Shown here in pieces: positions 5,648 to 48,344 of a stretch of DNA of 60,397 bases. Position 1 is the first letter of the stretch, and each line of letters opens with the position of its first letter. The stretch spans positions 1-60,397 of the IMG/VR virus record IMGVR_UViG_3300038560_000015. The stretch is one strand, 5' to 3'. Position numbers and translations under genes: made by a program. Under the pieces are notes generated by a model. It was given only the letters and a program-made list of their open reading frames with translations, ran no database searches and had not been told where the DNA came from. This stretch comes from a virus.

Positions 5648-6048
5648 CCGTCGCCGTCTATACCATTGCCGAGGCGGCTGCGGTGCTCCGCAAAACCCCT
5701 CGATGGCTTGTCAACTGGCTGCGGGATAACCCGGTCGACGCGACCGGAACGCCGTTCTACACTCCGGCCGGCCGCACCAAGACATTCGACGATAGCGAGC
5801 TGTTCCGGATCCGTGTGGCGATGCGTGAGGCAGAGCAATGCCGCTTAAGATCATCACGTCCCGCAACAAGAAAACGAAAAACCTCTATATCCGCGGCTCG
5901 TACCTCGGAGTCCGAGTGGACCAAAGCTGCAAGACTGGCAAACGATCCGTCGCTGGCGGAATTCTCAAGCGGCTCGAAGCCAGCATCGAAAGAGGCGAGT
6001 ACCCACCGCGTGAAGCTGGAACTCGTAGCGACGAACCGACATTCTTGA
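5644..6048 (+). CDS. Excisionase-like HTH protein overlapping the integrase gene
   Basis: 134 residues from GTG 5644 (GTGA overlap with the preceding stop). The first 65 residues form an HTH_17/MerR-type domain: YTIAEAAAVLRKTPRWLVNW, then a loop, and KTFDDSELFRIR, as in phage excisionases and AlpA-type proteins. The last 70 codons lie inside the start of the integrase gene in another frame and look low in complexity (Ser/Arg/Lys). Lambda xis and int also overlap, but by fewer codons. Role as recombination directionality factor is inference from fold and position. Confidence 0.65.
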   Translation: MTVAVYTIAEAAAVLRKTPRWLVNWLRDNPVDATGTPFYTPAGRTKTFDDSELFRIRVAMREAEQCRLRSSRPATRKRKTSISAARTSESEWTKAARLANDPSLAEFSSGSKPASKEASTHRVKLELVATNRHS

Positions 6049-6881
6049 CCGCGGCAAACGCCTACATGGAAGCCGGAAGGCCGGCGCGCTACGTCGCGCC
6101 GCTGATCAAACATTTTGGCGAGACGCCAATCGCCGCGATCGATCAGGCCGCGATCGATGCCGCAGCCGTCGCCTTAGTGCCGAACGGCACGCCGATGAAC
6201 CGGACGCGGCTGGTCTACACGCCCGTCTCGGCGATCATGCACCACGCCGGCGACAAGCGGCCGATCAAGCGGCCGAAGGGTTTCCAGGGCCGCACGATCA
6301 CCGACTGGATCGTGCCGGAGGACGCGTTCGGCATCATAGCCGGCGCCGACACGTTCGATCCCGAATTCGGCACGCTCCTGTGCTTCCTACTCTACACTGG
6401 GCCGCGGATCAGCGCCGCGCTCAGCCAGCAGCGCGAGGATTTCAGGCTCGATGACGGCCGTGCGTGGGCGCGCAACCAAAAGGGCCAGCCGCACATGGAC
6501 ATCCGCTTACGCGCCGACCTCTGTGATCGCTTTAGAGCGCTGCTGGCGAGCCATGACCGCCATCGCGTGTTTCGGTGGCACTACGGCGCGCACCTCGCCC
6601 ACTTGCTCACGCGCGCCAAGCTGGCCTATCTGGGCATTGAGTGTCCCGTGCGCCGGCCGATCGGATGGCGGCAGCCGCCCAACCGTCTTAAGTGGGTGAC
6701 TTTCCACATCTGGCGCCATACTTGGGCGACTTGGATGCGGCATACAGGTGTTGACGTGAAGGGTCTCGTCGCCACCGGAAACTGGCGCTCGGAGAAAGCG
6801 GCATCACGCTACGCCCATGCCGTGGCGCGCCAGGAGTGGGATCACGTCGAGAAGCTGCCGGGGATGAAGGTGAAGGCATGA
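5838..6881 (+). CDS. int: Tyrosine integrase
   Basis: 347-residue tyrosine recombinase for site-specific integration and, with Xis, excision. The catalytic set is visible: Arg190 in YTGPRISAAL, His290 and Arg293 in FHIWRHTW, Trp316 in GNWRSEK at the usual His/Trp position, and nucleophile Tyr325 in SRYAHAV. The N-terminal arm-binding and core-binding parts are short. ATG 5838 opens the conserved-looking N-terminus MPLKIITSRNKK. The stop is coupled by ATGA to the next small gene. The last 60 bp are duplicated at 7111-7170. No tRNA gene is visible next to it, so the attachment site is not identified. Confidence 0.93.
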   Translation: MPLKIITSRNKKTKNLYIRGSYLGVRVDQSCKTGKRSVAGGILKRLEASIERGEYPPREAGTRSDEPTFLTAANAYMEAGRPARYVAPLIKHFGETPIAAIDQAAIDAAAVALVPNGTPMNRTRLVYTPVSAIMHHAGDKRPIKRPKGFQGRTITDWIVPEDAFGIIAGADTFDPEFGTLLCFLLYTGPRISAALSQQREDFRLDDGRAWARNQKGQPHMDIRLRADLCDRFRALLASHDRHRVFRWHYGAHLAHLLTRAKLAYLGIECPVRRPIGWRQPPNRLKWVTFHIWRHTWATWMRHTGVDVKGLVATGNWRSEKAASRYAHAVARQEWDHVEKLPGMKVKA

Positions 6882-41081: not shown

Positions 41082-42494
41082 TCAGCCTCGAATGACTACA
41101 GCGCTATCGGCCATCGCCGCGATGCGTTGCTTGATGGCCGCGAGCGGCGCGCGCCAGTTTTCGGGCGCAACCTGATCGAAAAGCTCGACCGACGGATACC
41201 AGGGTGCCGCACCCTTGCACCAGCGCCAGCACGGATTGATCGGATTGAGCATGAAACAAGGCTTGCCGAGTGCGCCGGCCACATGGACCGCCGCGGTATC
41301 GACCGCGACGACAAGATCGAGCTTTTGCACCACTGCTGCCGTGTCGGCGAAGTCACTGATGCCGGCCGTCGCGTCACCGACGAGATATTCGGCACCGCTG
41401 TCAATCCGCTCTTGTGCATAGGGTCCGATCTGCAGCGACCACAACCGGACGCCGGGAATGGTGCCGAGATCGAGCAGGTCGCCGACCGGGACCGACCGCT
41501 GTCGGCTCCGCTCGTGACCGGGCGAAGCCGCCCATACCAGACCGACGGCGAGCTTCGCGCCGCCATCACGGAAGGACCGATCGCAGTGCACTTGCGCCGT
41601 CAGGTATGGCGCCGAAGGTATTGTTTCATAACTTGGCTTGCACAGCGCCACGGCGGAGATCAGCGGGCAGTGAAAGTGTGCATCACGCGCGGCGCATACG
41701 ATGTCGCCCGGGCTGTCGATATCGATGATCAGATCGATCTTGCAGTGGCCGCGCAGCAATCGATGGAGCGCCTTCGGCGCAGCCAACACTATGCGAGCCG
41801 GTCCCGTCGCCTGTTCTCCGGCAAAGCGCCTGATGATCTCGGGGATGAAGCGAACGAACTGCAGCGTGTCGCCGAAGCCCTGCTCATGGTGCAGCAGCAG
41901 CGTCTTGCCGCCGAACTCTTCGCCGTTCCATTTCGGCAGACCGCAGTCCCAGATCGGGTTCTTGATCAGCATCCCCGCCCAGCGCACCTCGAGCAGATCA
42001 AGACCGAGCGCCAGATCACCGGACTTGAGCACGGCATGGGCCAAGTCTGACAGGCAGTTGACGGCATCCGGCTTGATCGCCAGCGCCCGCCTGAATGATG
42101 CTATCGCGTGGCTTGATCGCCCAGTCGCATAGTACAGCAAACCGAGATTGTGATGCGGCCCGTAATGGTCCGGCAGCAGATCCCGCGCCCGCGTCAGTGC
42201 CGCTTCCGCCTCGGCAAAGCGCTGAGCCCGCCACAGCGTATTGCCGAGGTTGTCCCAGACGTGACCGTTGTCCGGCTCGCTCGCCAGCGCGCGGCGAGAC
42301 AGCGCGATCGCGGCATCGTAACGGCCGGCACCGCAGACCATCACGGCGAGGTTATGATAGGCCTGCGTATAGTCGACGTCGCTGTCGAGCGCGGCCTGCA
42401 GCAACGCAAAGGCGTTGCCGCTGTCGCCGGCCGACATGCGTTCGGCGCCGAGCCGCAGAAGATCTGCGGCTCGGCTATTCAGTGTGCCGTGCAC
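41082..42494 (-). CDS. TPR-containing glycosyltransferase-like protein in the head operon
   Basis: 470 residues. Residues 1 to about 170 are at least four TPR units (for example AYHNLAVMVCGAGRYDAAIA, HVWDNLGNTLWRAQRFAEAE, HHNLGLLYYATGRSSHAIA). Residues about 185-465 form a GT-B domain like GT9/heptosyltransferases and TPR-GTs: LLLHHEQGFGDTLQFVRFIP at the start and LDLVVAVDTAAVHVAGALGK plus APWYPSVELF at the end, the nucleotide-sugar and catalytic regions. Bacterial homologues act in flagellin or protein glycosylation. It lies between a putative decoration protein and the portal gene with 3-nt gaps, so it should be made with the virion proteins. Confidence 0.8.
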   Translation of the reverse strand: MHGTLNSRAADLLRLGAERMSAGDSGNAFALLQAALDSDVDYTQAYHNLAVMVCGAGRYDAAIALSRRALASEPDNGHVWDNLGNTLWRAQRFAEAEAALTRARDLLPDHYGPHHNLGLLYYATGRSSHAIASFRRALAIKPDAVNCLSDLAHAVLKSGDLALGLDLLEVRWAGMLIKNPIWDCGLPKWNGEEFGGKTLLLHHEQGFGDTLQFVRFIPEIIRRFAGEQATGPARIVLAAPKALHRLLRGHCKIDLIIDIDSPGDIVCAARDAHFHCPLISAVALCKPSYETIPSAPYLTAQVHCDRSFRDGGAKLAVGLVWAASPGHERSRQRSVPVGDLLDLGTIPGVRLWSLQIGPYAQERIDSGAEYLVGDATAGISDFADTAAVVQKLDLVVAVDTAAVHVAGALGKPCFMLNPINPCWRWCKGAAPWYPSVELFDQVAPENWRAPLAAIKQRIAAMADSAVVIRG

Positions 42495-43235: not shown

Positions 43236-45146
43236 TTAGGTCGTGGCGAGCGCCACGGATGAAACGCGTTCAAACCCGATGTCGATAAGCGAAGCACTGT
43301 CCTGTTCGTCGACTTCAATGGTGCCATCGGCGCCGACGATGTACTGGCGCCCGGACATGCTGGACACATTGGAAATACCCGCCGGGGCGCGCAGGCAGAT
43401 TTCCTTTTTCGATCCCGCCGCGACGGTCGCGACAGCCGGCGACTTGGCGGCTTCCGACGCCGCACGGTAGAATTCCAAGATACCGCGGGCGCCTTTCGGC
43501 TCCGGATTGCGGATCATCACGTCGGCGGCGTCCCACAGCGCGAACACCGGATCGACCTTGGCATCGCCGGCGCTCTGCTTGGTCGCCGCTATCCCGGAGC
43601 GGCCGGCTTCGATCTTCACGTTGCCGACGCACCAATTCATCAGCGCGCTGGGCGAATGCAGGAGGGAGCCGTTCTCGAGCTTGCGTTCCGTCGTCTTGAT
43701 AGCACGCATCAAGCGCCAGCCCTGACCGATGCCGACGATCTGCTCGCTTGCCTCGTTGACGCCGATCTTGTCGAGCTCGTCGACGAGCTCCCCGTAGGGG
43801 CCCTCGTTGTCGATCGCGACGGCGGCGAGCAAGCCCGCGTCGTTCACCTTGGCGATCAGATCGACGACGGCGAGGATGTCCTGGTCGGCGCTGTCGATGA
43901 AAGTGAGGTCGCCGAGCTTTTCGAAGTCCTCGAGCAGCGAGGCGATGGCCTTGCGCCGTTCCAGCACCTTGCGATGGCACCAGGCGTGTGACCACAACAG
44001 CCAGCGCTTGGTTTCCCTTTCACGCCCGAGAGCCGCAAAGCCGAACAGATCGTCGAGCCCACCGCCATCGAGACCGATCACGATCGCCTCGCAGCGCGCG
44101 ATCAGGTCATCAAGCCTCAGAACCTTTTCGTCTTCGGACGTTGACCAGAACTCGGCGCCGGCCCACGATTCCGACTTGAGCCCGATGCCGATCTCGATGT
44201 TGAGATGCTGCGAGGCCCAGATCCGCTTCGCCTGCTCGTTCTTGGACTTCTCGGTTTCCCAGTCCGGGATCAGGCTCGTTAGGTGCATCGACCGGCCGAG
44301 GTTCGGCATCACCATCGGCCAGTTGACAGGATTGCTCCACTTGTCCTGGTCCTTGGCGATGTCGGCCGGGAACTCGTAGATGATCGGCAGCATGGACCGC
44401 ACCTCGCGATCCTTGAACCGGCCATCGCGGATCCCGCGCGCCATCGCGAGCTCGTCCTTCATCACGCCGGCGGGAATGTCGTCGCTCGCCGTCGTGGTGA
44501 TGAGAAGCAATCCCTCCTGCGTCTTTTCAAGGCCGCCGCGGATTTGCCGCAGCACCTTGGCCGCGTAGGGCAATCGGCCCAGCAAGTGCAGCTCGTCGAC
44601 CAGCGCCAGAAATAGGATCGAGCCGGTCAGGATATTGACGTCGAAGGTCTTGACCCGAAGCTCGGAGCCGGTGACCAGGTCCTCGATCGTTTTGACGTGG
44701 TCGCGGGTGCGAAACCGCCGCTTCAGGTCGACCGAGGCCTCGATCATGCCGGTCGCCTTGTCATAGGCGTTATCGGCGATGGCTTGTGTCGGCCCGACGA
44801 ACAGCGCCTCGGCGCGCGGCCGTCGGTTCATCAGCATGCCGACCAGTAGCAGGCCGGCAGAGTAGGTCGTTTTCGACTGCCCCTTCGGCAGCATCGCGAA
44901 GATGTCGCGGATGTAGCGGACCCGGGCGACCGGGTCCCACGATCCGAAGGCGACGCGGACGATGTCGCGAAACCACTGCCCGGCGGCGTCGCGCATCCTT
45001 GGCAGGCCGGGCTGATCGGGAAGCTGCAGCTCGTCGAAGAACTGCAGCCCGATGTCCGCCTCGCTCTCGATCAGCGGCAGCTTCGGTATGAGCGACCGGC
45101 CGGCCCGGATGCGGGCCTCCCAATCGACGCAGGAGGTGTCCCACAT
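43236..45146 (-). CDS. terL: Terminase large subunit with an extra C-terminal module
   Basis: 636 residues. ATPase: Walker A-like PKGQSKTT (87-94) and Walker B ALVDELHLL (Asp184, Glu185). Nuclease: VIGLDGGGLDD and, further on, TFIDSADQDI with metal-binding Asp residues. Residues 583-636 (ICLRAPAGISNVSSMSGRQ, IVGADGTIEVDEQ) are not part of the usual terminase but resemble the N-terminus of the next gene product. It cuts concatemers and pumps DNA into proheads. Confidence 0.9.
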   Translation of the reverse strand: MWDTSCVDWEARIRAGRSLIPKLPLIESEADIGLQFFDELQLPDQPGLPRMRDAAGQWFRDIVRVAFGSWDPVARVRYIRDIFAMLPKGQSKTTYSAGLLLVGMLMNRRPRAEALFVGPTQAIADNAYDKATGMIEASVDLKRRFRTRDHVKTIEDLVTGSELRVKTFDVNILTGSILFLALVDELHLLGRLPYAAKVLRQIRGGLEKTQEGLLLITTTASDDIPAGVMKDELAMARGIRDGRFKDREVRSMLPIIYEFPADIAKDQDKWSNPVNWPMVMPNLGRSMHLTSLIPDWETEKSKNEQAKRIWASQHLNIEIGIGLKSESWAGAEFWSTSEDEKVLRLDDLIARCEAIVIGLDGGGLDDLFGFAALGRERETKRWLLWSHAWCHRKVLERRKAIASLLEDFEKLGDLTFIDSADQDILAVVDLIAKVNDAGLLAAVAIDNEGPYGELVDELDKIGVNEASEQIVGIGQGWRLMRAIKTTERKLENGSLLHSPSALMNWCVGNVKIEAGRSGIAATKQSAGDAKVDPVFALWDAADVMIRNPEPKGARGILEFYRAASEAAKSPAVATVAAGSKKEICLRAPAGISNVSSMSGRQYIVGADGTIEVDEQDSASLIDIGFERVSSVALATT

Positions 45147-45147
45147 C

Positions 45148-45675
45148 TCAGTTGACGGGCTGGCCCTGCCGCTGCGCCATCAGTTCGCCAAGCGGCGTCC
45201 CGGTATCAGGCCGCTGCGCATCCTCGAGCGCCTGCTCTTTCTTGCCCTTCGATGGCGGCTTCGGCTGATGCGCCGGCTGCGGCCGCTCGGTCTGGCCGTA
45301 CATCATCAGGTCGTTACGGCGGACGAGATCGCGGAATTCCTTCATCGCCGGCACGCTGCCGTCTTCGACCAGGCGCCATAGCCGCATCGCCAGCGCCGCA
45401 TCCATCCGATCGCGCTGCTCGTCGCGGCGCTTGAGCTCGGCCTTGTAGAATTTACGAAGCGTCGGCTTGGTGATGTAGAGCGCCCGAGCGATGCGCTCGT
45501 TACCCCATCCCAGTGCCAAGAGCAGGATGACCTTATTGCGGTTTTCCGAAGTCGCGATGTGCTGCGGCCGGCCGCGCAGTCCAAAGCCGTCAGGCACCGG
45601 GTCGCCGAACAGGTCGACCCGCTGCGGCGTGCTGCTCTCGGACTTGGCCTCTGGAACTTGCTCGTCGGGCGCCAT
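45148..45675 (-). CDS. terS: Terminase small subunit
   Basis: 175 residues from ATG 45675 behind GGTGG. An HTH (VILLLALGWGNERIARALYI, then TKPTLRKFY) recognises the packaging site; helices and a Pro/Gln-rich tail follow. It ends 1 nt before the TerL start. Longer upstream starts would reach into the terminator region and are not favoured. Confidence 0.75.
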   Translation of the reverse strand: MAPDEQVPEAKSESSTPQRVDLFGDPVPDGFGLRGRPQHIATSENRNKVILLLALGWGNERIARALYITKPTLRKFYKAELKRRDEQRDRMDAALAMRLWRLVEDGSVPAMKEFRDLVRRNDLMMYGQTERPQPAHQPKPPSKGKKEQALEDAQRPDTGTPLGELMAQRQGQPVN

Positions 45676-45784: not shown

Positions 45785-45815
45785 AAAAAAAATCCGCCGA
45801 TGTTGGGTCGCGCGG
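45785..45815 (-). terminator. Intrinsic terminator upstream of terS
   Basis: On the minus strand CCGCGCGA pairs with TCGGCGG (one bulge) around CCCAACA and is followed by ATTTTTTTT. It lies between the HNH gene and terS, so late genes would need readthrough or a promoter of their own. A GGCGGC-TCT-GCCGC hairpin lies just upstream. Confidence 0.65.
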
Positions 45816-45841
45816 TTACAGCGGCAGAGCCGCCCGAAAAT

Positions 45842-46186
45842 TTAACCCCCTACCCCCCCAGACCTATTTTTTCGAGCAGCGATGCCTTTGAGCGTGTTGT
45901 GTTGCACGCAGAGACAAGCGCCGTTGGCTGGGTCGAAGAGTGCGCCGCCGTCCTGGCGTTCGACGATATGGTCGGCGATCATCCGATGCTCGGGCGCCGC
46001 GCGTTCGCAACGCACGCCATCCTCAATCCACTGGCAGCGCCAGTCGGCCCGGCTGCATACGATCTCACGGAAGCGCCGGTGCTGCTGCGTCAGCAGTTCC
46101 TCATCGGCCGTCTTTGGGGATGGCTTGACGATACGGCCATCAAAGCGACCGACAAGCGGCTTGAGCGTCGGCAGCTTTGTCGCCAT
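45842..46186 (-). CDS. HNH endonuclease next to terminase
   Basis: 114 residues from ATG 46186. CQWIEDGVRCERAAPEHRMI, ADHIVERQDGGALFDPANG and LCVQHNTLK form a Cys4/HNH unit (His in DHIV, Asn in the DPANG loop and His in QHN). HNH proteins beside terminase genes assist DNA packaging cleavage in HK97-type phages. Located between two terminators. Confidence 0.8.
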   Translation of the reverse strand: MATKLPTLKPLVGRFDGRIVKPSPKTADEELLTQQHRRFREIVCSRADWRCQWIEDGVRCERAAPEHRMIADHIVERQDGGALFDPANGACLCVQHNTLKGIAARKNRSGGVGG

Positions 46187-46398
46187 CACACACGCCGCGG
46201 CGAACGGTTCCAAGGCCTGCCGTGTGCCGGCGGCAGACGCCTTAAGCGTGTGATCAGGTCGTGGCGATAGCGCCGGCAGACGTTCCCGCCTTGTTGGCCG
46301 CGCCAGCGTTCCATCCGATGCTTGTTCGGATTTAGCTGAAAACGGTGAAAGCGCCGGCCATCTGAGCGGAGAGCATAGAGCATACACCCTATGACAAC
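46187..46398. other. Gap between the HNH gene and the terminator after nusG-like gene
   Basis: No convincing gene. A minus-strand frame from ATG 46446 to 46186 (MLYALRSDGRRFHRFQLN within it) is very Arg-rich and runs through the terminator, so it is probably not coding. Nothing else is seen apart from the terminator at 46399-46425. Confidence 0.4.
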
Positions 46399-46425
46399 AA
46401 AAAAGCCGAGGCGTTTGCCCCGGCT
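46399..46425 (-). terminator. Strong intrinsic terminator after the NusG-like gene
   Basis: On the minus strand AGCCGGGGC-AAAC-GCCTCGGCT, a 9-bp stem with one G-U pair, followed by TTTTTTG. The best intrinsic terminator in the window, 86 bp after the NusG-like gene and ahead of the HNH and terminase genes. Confidence 0.8.
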
Positions 46426-46510
46426 CCATGGCTTCGCTTTGGCCACGGACCTCGCTTGGCCCGATCATCCGCCAGTCGCCGTTCCCACGTCCAATCGCTT
46501 GGCAGGTACG

Positions 46511-47161
46511 TTAAGCGAGGCCCAACGCTCGTCGCAGTGCCTGATTCCTTCCGTCGTCGTCAAGCGTCTCGATCCCAGTCCAGTAGGACTTGGTGTAGAC
46601 GGCGACGATCTCATTCTCGGTAAAGCGTTCTTCGCGCAAGCGTTCTTCCTGAGTTTTGTTGCTATTGCGCCAGCGCTTTTTCTTCTTGGGATAACCGATC
46701 AGTTCGAGGGTGATGCTAAGTGGGCGATGCTTGTTTTCGACGGCCTTGATTCGGGCAATGTCGGCATCGCTGATGATCGCGGGGTTGTCTTCGATCAGCA
46801 CAAAGCGCAAAACGCCGGGACAGGCGAGCACGCGGCCATAATGCCGGTTGATGCCCCACAAGAATACGAAAATATATCCTCGAAACATCGGATGCAGCGA
46901 TTTGACACGACGACCGCGGCGCATTTCGTCGGTTTCGACCTCCGGGACGTAAATGCCGAAGCGGCGAGCGCTCAGATGGGCCGCGGCGATCTTCTGATGG
47001 CCCGGTGTTGTCTCGATTACATACCACGCCGGAGTGACGCCAGCGACGATCTCCGCATCGAGCTTGTTGCGTCCCTCATAATCGACGATCTGTCCATTCG
47101 AAGTTGCCGCCCGGACCATCGCCATATTCCCGCCCGTCGTGGTCTCGCTCGCCATCAGCAT
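46511..47161 (-). CDS. NusG/RfaH-like transcription (anti)termination factor
   Basis: 216 residues from ATG 47161 (GAGGGGAAC before it; the upstream ATG 47200 lies within the preceding gene). The NGN domain is clear: WYVIETTPGHQKIAAAHLSA, then GIYVPEVETDEMRRGRR and PMFRGYIFVFL, ending with GVLRFVLIEDNPAIISDADI. NGN binds RNA polymerase beta' clamp. No clear KOW domain follows; the C-terminal 70 residues are basic and helical. Standing just before two terminators and the terminase operon, it is a candidate late-gene antiterminator. Confidence 0.85.
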   Translation of the reverse strand: MLMASETTTGGNMAMVRAATSNGQIVDYEGRNKLDAEIVAGVTPAWYVIETTPGHQKIAAAHLSARRFGIYVPEVETDEMRRGRRVKSLHPMFRGYIFVFLWGINRHYGRVLACPGVLRFVLIEDNPAIISDADIARIKAVENKHRPLSITLELIGYPKKKKRWRNSNKTQEERLREERFTENEIVAVYTKSYWTGIETLDDDGRNQALRRALGLA

Positions 47162-47174
47162 GTTCCCCTCGCTT

Positions 47175-48344
47175 TCACTTGAAATCCGCAAGTTCTTCAT
47201 CGCTGCAGCCGATATCGGGTGCAGTTATCGAAATCGTTCCGTCTTTGCGCGGCGGCCATGGCCACGGCGCGCGGGAGCCTTCGGTCAACCGACGCCAGAT
47301 TTCGATTTCCAGATGTTCCGCGAGCAAGCTATTCCAGGCGCCAGCCTGTTGCCGCGTCAGCGCAACCCACTCGCGATCAGGCTTTGCCGATGCCAGCGCC
47401 AGCAATTGCGGCGTGATCGGCTTTCGATACCAGATGCCGCCGTCAACGGCGTGTTTCGAGCCGAAAATCAGGTTTTCCTTGCCGGCGATCTTGTGCAGCG
47501 TGGCGACGGCGGTCCATTCACGGCTGCCACGCGGAAGCGGCGTCGGAACAGGGTCGCACAACCCGTCGAAAATGCGATCACGAAGGAACTTGTGGGCGTC
47601 CTTGGGACGGCGGGCAAGCTTCTCGCATTCCGGGCCATAGCGACCGGCAGCAACGACGGCCTTTTCCTGATCGATCTCGGAAAGCGCCTTGAACCACGGC
47701 CAAGCGGCTTTCCAGTCGTTCACCTTGATCGGATATTTGCGTTTGAAGCGTTCGAAGCGCTCGTAGGCCGATTGCTCTTTCTCGCCCACCTGCAGCGGCT
47801 CGGCTTGGGAAGGGCTTTGGGTAGGGTTTAGGTTCCTAACAGGTTCCTCTATAGGCTGCCGCTGTAGAGCGGTAGCGTCGACCGCTGGTGGCGGCAGCGT
47901 AGAGCCGGAAACGCTGCCGCCAGTTGCGGTAGCGTCAGGGCCGGAATCATCCGTTGGCGCGCGGCTTTCTTCACTATCAACGCTGCCGCCAGTTGCGGTA
48001 GCGTTTTCAGCCTCGCCGAGGATGTCGCAGCCACTTGGGAGGTGTGGCAAAATCTCGTCAACCGGCGCGCCGAACAGCGGCGACGGCTTCAAAATCAGGA
48101 AGTCATGCGTGCGCCGGCCGAACCGCTTGAGCTTCACCCGCCGCACGAGGCCGGCTTCGACCAGGTCGCTGAGATAGCGCTGCACGCTGTCAGACGATTG
48201 CTCGCTTTCGTCGGCGATCAGATCCTGCTTCGGATAGGCGAACCACAGCGGCCCGGCATAGTTGGCGATCGACCACAAGACGCACTTCGCCCGCGGCGAG
48301 CCCGTCTTTTGCTCGATCGCCCAAGTCATGGCCTGGAAGCTCAT
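47175..48344 (-). CDS. Helix-turn-helix replication-type protein
   Basis: 389 residues. The N-terminal 90 residues are a winged helix of the replication-initiator/DnaD-like type: RAKCVLWSIANYAGPLWFAY, SDSVQRYLSDLVEAGLVRRV. A Pro/Ser/Thr-rich linker (residues about 105-185) leads to a helical C-terminal domain (WPWFKALSEIDQEKAVVAAG). This layout is that of lambda O-like proteins. The origin is often inside such linkers; here the DNA of the linker (47880-48010) has repeats encoding TATGGSV twice. Role as origin binder is inference. Confidence 0.65.
   Translation of the reverse strand: MSFQAMTWAIEQKTGSPRAKCVLWSIANYAGPLWFAYPKQDLIADESEQSSDSVQRYLSDLVEAGLVRRVKLKRFGRRTHDFLILKPSPLFGAPVDEILPHLPSGCDILGEAENATATGGSVDSEESRAPTDDSGPDATATGGSVSGSTLPPPAVDATALQRQPIEEPVRNLNPTQSPSQAEPLQVGEKEQSAYERFERFKRKYPIKVNDWKAAWPWFKALSEIDQEKAVVAAGRYGPECEKLARRPKDAHKFLRDRIFDGLCDPVPTPLPRGSREWTAVATLHKIAGKENLIFGSKHAVDGGIWYRKPITPQLLALASAKPDREWVALTRQQAGAWNSLLAEHLEIEIWRRLTEGSRAPWPWPPRKDGTISITAPDIGCSDEELADFK

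Follow-up and report, generated by a model that had tools for sequence, protein, structure and literature searches.

A NusG-like gene without a KOW domain at the early/late boundary of a phage genome, a candidate regulator of late-gene read-through

The window analysed here, a stretch of 60,397 bases from an IMG/VR virus record, carries a nusG-like gene between its early genes and its packaging genes. The best explanation for this gene is probably that it encodes a specialised phage NusG paralogue causing read-through from early into late genes. The gene would be expressed last in the early operon, and the NGN domain of its product, whose fold is predicted, would bind the elongating RNA polymerase of the host. 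The bound polymerase would pass the terminator behind the gene, T1, and later stop signals, and early transcription would continue into HNH-terS-terL and the virion genes. Such a role would be like that of lambda Q or GafZ, but with read-through from an upstream promoter instead of loading at a late promoter, a mode that we propose because the promoter signature is missing at NusG loci. We infer the timing of this action.

From 60 kb down to 19 kb, all phage genes that we identified lie on the minus strand. They run from methyltransferases, helicases and an O-like initiator through the nusG-like gene, HNH, terS and terL to portal and tail genes. A sequence-only reading of the window had proposed the order NusG-like gene, terminator, HNH, terS-terL; Pfam and PHROG matches confirmed these genes, all on the minus strand. 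The features are as follows.

5838-6881, plus strand: integrase-like gene
47175-48344, minus strand: O-like replication initiator, the next gene upstream of nusG, where the early operon ends (PHROG 270, 3.8e-18)
46511-47161, minus strand: nusG-like gene, 216 aa (Pfam 7.4e-17; PHROG 6386, 1.3e-17)
46402-46427, minus strand: strong intrinsic terminator T1, 3' of nusG (pattern scan, fold against shuffles)
46385-46393, minus strand: CATAGGGTG motif just past T1, recurring behind terminators in relatives
45842-46186, minus strand: HNH endonuclease gene of the packaging module, probable extent with a deduced start (PHROG 589, 1.4e-12)
45847-45855, minus strand: GGGTAGGGG motif where HNH meets terS, candidate cos/packaging site (14 of 60 loci)
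45785-45815, minus strand: second terminator of the sequence-only reading, a T8 run without a significant hairpin, unsupported
45148-45675, minus strand: terS (PHROG 12540, 2.4e-49, and position); the ORF is open from 45777, with a likely start at 45675
43236-45146, minus strand: terL (PHROG 9, 6.2e-93)

The probable extent of the HNH gene is given as 45842-46186 because the PHROG 589 match (1.4e-12) spans residues 94-200 of a long ORF; its Pfam HNH score is just 0.095, below the cut-off. PHROG 12540 is a family without a function name, and the terS label comes from position. Between the terL-side genes and portal, a 470-aa ORF (41082-42494) resembles a TPR-repeat protein. Inside the O-like initiator gene (47862-48006) we observed inverted-arm repeats, with AACGCTGCCGCCAGTTGCGGTAGCGT present twice exactly and related copies adjoining; these repeats look similar to the iterons within gene O of the lambda-type origin. 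Judged from the named relatives described below, the hosts are probably Alphaproteobacteria.

The nusG ORF spans 46511-47200 on the minus strand, and we read the ATG at 47161, preceded by GAGGGGAAC, as the better start. The gene had been called NusG-like with this start from sequence alone, and the GAGGGGAAC-ATG arrangement bears this out together with the profile matches: the NGN domain of Pfam PF02357 scored 62.1 bits against a cut-off of 22.2 (7.4e-17), and PHROG 6386 (1.3e-17) is labelled 'transcription antiterminator'. An AF2 model built on an 18-row alignment shows an NGN domain with pLDDT 84-97, followed by a disordered linker and, at the C-terminus, two short helices. The best solved-structure matches of this model in Foldseek were RfaH chains, with E about 1e-8. 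The window protein gave no Pfam match to the KOW domain, and the AF2 model has no barrel. Its modelled C-terminus is not of KOW type, and we did not find an RfaH-type autoinhibitory alpha-helical CTD that would refold into a KOW barrel. The loss of KOW would be expected to sever the link to Rho and the ribosome.

The C-termini of the relatives are diverse. The KOW-type relative L063, when modelled, has beta strands at the KOW position, with a weak KOW match, and L107, L108, L011 and L021 have basic tails at this end. The window protein shares a basic KKKRRW-type linker and the conserved end LDxxGRNQxLxRALGL with L111, L109 and L165. These data bear on the idea that the gene is a non-functional remnant travelling with the packaging module, to which the missing KOW domain lends some support. 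Against this, the ORF is intact, the replacement C-terminus GRNQxLxRALGL is kept in the L111/L109/L165 subclade at 38-41% overall identity, and the slot is kept across diverse phages; we consider a remnant most improbable. We place the window protein in a KOW-less subclade, and its form does not suggest decay. The missing KOW domain also argues against a protein that aids termination or host shut-off, as a NusG-like termination factor or a competitor of host NusG, since it would be the part contacting Rho. NusG proteins that stimulate termination or pausing do exist (accessible part of PMC8060035), but the position of the gene at the early/late boundary and its exchange for a GafZ-like protein, described below, make this reading quite unlikely.

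Using terL as bait, we collected 80 loci with a related TerL. Pfam NusG, searched in 50 of the 80, matched in 16 records, always on the strand of terL and ending 0.96-2.08 kb before it. Our own NusG profile, run on all 80 loci, added L009, L037 and L042, which leads to 19 NusG loci with 960-2627 nt between the end of nusG and terL. Among the 34 loci with at least 2.6 kb upstream of terL, 18 carry a same-strand nusG. An identical C-terminal protein sequence was found in 3 of the 19 loci. The same order is seen in Bradyrhizobium phages ppBdUSDA122-1 and ppBeUSDA76-1 (profile matches 5e-82 and 9e-53, not annotated as NusG), in Mesorhizobium phage vB_MseS-P1 (annotated NusG) and in Sinorhizobium phage phi3LM21, where the gene after the annotated NusG encodes a hypothetical protein, not HNH. 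In Rhizobium phage PPF1 a nusG-like gene lies behind that of an HTH protein, near the record end. The order initiator, NusG, terminator, HNH, terS, terL is kept in several rhizobial phage groups, and the arrangement is a conserved system. A pattern search for the NusG protein gave no match in IMG/VR and one Paenibacillus locus in genome_contigs, with 33% identity over 60 residues. RcapNL_0001 was considered as a NusG and rejected (E 0.16).

T1 consists of 11 pairs with a 4-nt loop followed by TTTTTTG (46402-46427, minus strand). Its fold of -21.6 kcal/mol (z -3.09) was equalled by 0 of 200 shuffles, and the strong terminator proposed at 46399-46425 is thus real. The second one, proposed at 45785-45815, was not supported: it has a T8 run, but with z -0.64 it was matched by 53 of 200 shuffles, and the pattern scan did not return it. 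This unsupported site adjoins GGGTAGGGG (45847-45855), a sequence present at the HNH-terS junction in 14 of 60 TerL loci, with 0 occurrences in the remaining 918 kb of these loci, which is perhaps a cos or packaging site. Terminator number by itself is not unusual, because the pattern scan found 6 terminator-like sites in the 40-50 kb region against 8.4 expected from shuffles; T1 stands out by its stability and conserved position. Of 21 distinct loci, 14 have a hairpin with a T tract, at or below -14 kcal/mol, no farther than 300 nt from the nusG stop; the comparison sets gave 21 of 80 for other annotated CDS ends and 78 of 300 for random windows, which include coding sequence. At this cut-off, 7 of the 21 loci are without a strong terminator. 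At -18 kcal/mol the counts are 9/21, 11/80 and 27/300. The enrichment behind nusG genes is real, but moderate.

T1 could simply be the end of the early operon. The protein would then serve that operon, through processivity, anti-Rho action or interference with host NusG/Rho, and the late genes would have a promoter of their own. A long same-strand early block does end with the nusG-like gene, T1 right behind it has the normal position of an operon end, and the conserved CATAGGGTG past T1 could belong to an undescribed promoter. We nevertheless hold this explanation to be rather unlikely, in view of the lack of a consensus promoter between nusG and terL, the presence of TTGAC at the equivalent place in DUF6456-type relatives, and the association of the gene, in relatives, with a late-leader element (24 of 26 loci against 4 of 72, among the matches listed). 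The promoter and leader data are given in the following paragraphs.

A phrog_21451 protein fills the slot that separates the early genes from HNH in three loci, L005, L007 and L033; the L033 protein has a DUF6456 match as well, at 7.9e-5, which is under the Pfam cut-off. DUF6456 matches, none above the cut-off, were obtained in 7 of the 50 records searched (of 80), and also in the control Caulobacter vibrioides. NusG and DUF6456 occurred together in 0 cases, with 16 and 7 of the 50 records carrying one or the other and three further NusG loci. Only L005, L007, L033, L050 and L057 were taken as near-slot DUF6456 loci; L078, L059 and L080 were left out because the match lies about 9.6 kb upstream (L078) or at the other contig end (L059, L080). 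GafA searches match DUF6456 proteins, as stated in the accessible part of PMC9638019. For Caulobacter GafZ, which is homologous to the GafA C-terminus, the accessible part of PMC11150451 reports antitermination and a putative element between -35 and -10.

The -35 sequence TTGAC is found at -4 to +11 nt relative to the stop codon of the DUF6456-type regulator in 8 of 8 loci, a set that contains two near-identical records (L057, L059) and includes L007 by phrog_21451 only. Any TTGAC within 200 nt was found in 4 of 46 NusG loci against a shuffle mean of 5.7, in a sample that is biased, as 25 of the 46 entered via the leader motif; 7 duplicates had been dropped beforehand, and L127 and L179 have NusG far from that motif. 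A strong late promoter past the terminators would have spoken against read-through, and our scan of the window from nusG to terL for consensus-type promoters gave nothing above 8 of 12; a late promoter of non-consensus type may exist. A Q-type late promoter beside the regulator was thus found neither in the window (at most 8 of 12) nor at most NusG loci (TTGAC in 4 of 46). Of the evidence that the NusG type uses no Q-like late promoter beside its gene, the TTGAC contrast is the strongest. Since TTGAC accompanies the DUF6456 genes in 8 of 8 cases and not the NusG genes, the NusG type most likely acts by read-through from the early operon. Late-gene read-through had been the suggestion of the sequence-only reading, and it is still the likeliest reading, now with a single terminator: the conserved order, the GafZ-type swap and the lack of a consensus promoter favour it, while the single terminator and the chance that T1 just ends the operon weigh against it.

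In many NusG loci of relatives, the region past T1 holds the CATAGGGTG motif and a hairpin, together with a suhB/MmgR match in Rfam that has a terminator of its own. Matches above the gathering score follow nusG in L036, L043, L100, L106 and L110, and the leader hairpin has a mean fold of -12.1 kcal/mol over 32 loci against -5.9 for shuffles. An exact scan with CATAGGGTGTGCGGTAGCG retrieved 7 contigs, and in each of them a NusG-like gene ends 112-272 nt upstream. The suhB core occurs as an exact motif in at least 121 loci, 82 of which were taken into an earlier analysis. Among the matches listed, 26 suhB-core loci have a TAGG leader and 1 kb or more of upstream sequence, and NusG lies within 1 kb in 24 of them; without this leader it does so in 4 of 72. 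L198 and L204 have the suhB core and the TAGG leader, yet no NusG within 1 kb upstream. In the window, a search for suhB gave no match up to E = 5, and T1 and the CATAGGGTG motif are present; the suhB leader part of the system is absent from it.

Several short motifs were considered as signals. CTTGGGCGTTTCCTCCCT was rejected as a NusG-specific element, being the suhB/MmgR core in Rfam (RF00519), and CATAGGGTG was rejected as a sigma-70 -10 element, as there is no -35 at a fixed distance and its spacing to the hairpin varies. Nor is CATAGGGTG specific to NusG, because a similar motif is found in the DUF6456-type loci L231 and L233 and in RcapNL. GCGGTAGCG, found in Bradyrhizobium-type leaders, equals part of E. 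coli ops; it was rejected as an ops because it is a hairpin arm whose sequence varies while pairing stays, and it is absent there in the window. The likeness is probably accidental. The search for ops-like pause sites that had been proposed returned, with up to 2 mismatches, 15 sites in the window where 10.3 were expected, and 9 of 100 shuffles gave at least 15; the stretch between nusG and HNH had none of these sites. By eye, we observed in the Rhizobium-type loci L020, L026, L101, L103 and L104 a stem-loop with varying arms 60-170 nt past nusG, with GTGCGNAAGCTATG following or near, a candidate recruitment element. Also by eye, ATG-stop mini frames after a purine-rich stretch were seen behind the post-nusG terminator in L009, L036, L100 and L180.

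Taken more broadly, these loci may represent a widespread late switch of alphaproteobacterial phages, a proposal that we make tentatively. Proteins with NGN only, or with NGN and a new C-terminus, would pass a boundary terminator without a late promoter, often with a suhB/MmgR-type leader ending in a second terminator, and the slot would be interchangeable with GafZ-type promoter-loading antiterminators. Such a leader would be comparable to the lambda 6S leader.

The window protein resembles RfaH/NusG-SP in its NGN fold, with RfaH as best Foldseek matches, and in its likely role as antiterminator of one long operon. It differs by lacking KOW, and hence an RfaH-type fold switch, in that no suitably placed ops was found in the window, and by being phage-borne at an early/late boundary; rfaH-like genes on prophages are mentioned in the accessible part of PMC7593976. 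LoaP, also a NusG paralogue, overcomes the intrinsic terminator of its target operon (PMC12691694, accessible part), as the window protein may do at T1. LoaP is a Bacillus factor, whereas the hosts here are probably Alphaproteobacteria, and it needs a small RNA hairpin; no specific one is seen in the window, and relatives have post-nusG hairpins. Lambda Q, Q21 and GafZ share a regulator gene that sits immediately ahead of a terminator and of the late genes, but their fold is unrelated to NusG, and the DUF6456 loci of the GafZ kind bear at the regulator stop codon the TTGAC promoter sequence that NusG loci lack. A further described case is gp34 ('transcription antiterminator') of a phiLM21-like Sinorhizobium prophage, which matches our NusG profile at 8.6e-12 and precedes HNH, terS and terL. 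In the accessible text of PMC12429752 (2025), the antiterminator and HNH of such prophages close the predicted early region; gp34 is distant in sequence, and its role is assigned from sequence there. The family annotation is already known, and homologues are labelled antiterminators. The claim that no phage late regulator of this type is well described stands insofar as our literature search, with most subscription papers outside it, turned up no functional work on a NusG-like late regulator of phages; it is weakened by the NusG and antitermination annotations already in phage records.

Phage late control is known mainly via Q, N, put RNA, activators, and phage sigma factors or polymerases. 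A late regulator of the NusG family, if confirmed, would tie the sole universal transcription factor to phage timing. RfaH-N suffices for antitermination in vitro, and the KOW-less subclade offers a natural test of whether NGN alone suffices in vivo. If the broader proposal is true, two unrelated mechanisms replace each other at one genome position. This DUF6456/NusG swap is testable by regulator exchange and would join the control of gene transfer agents with that of temperate phages.
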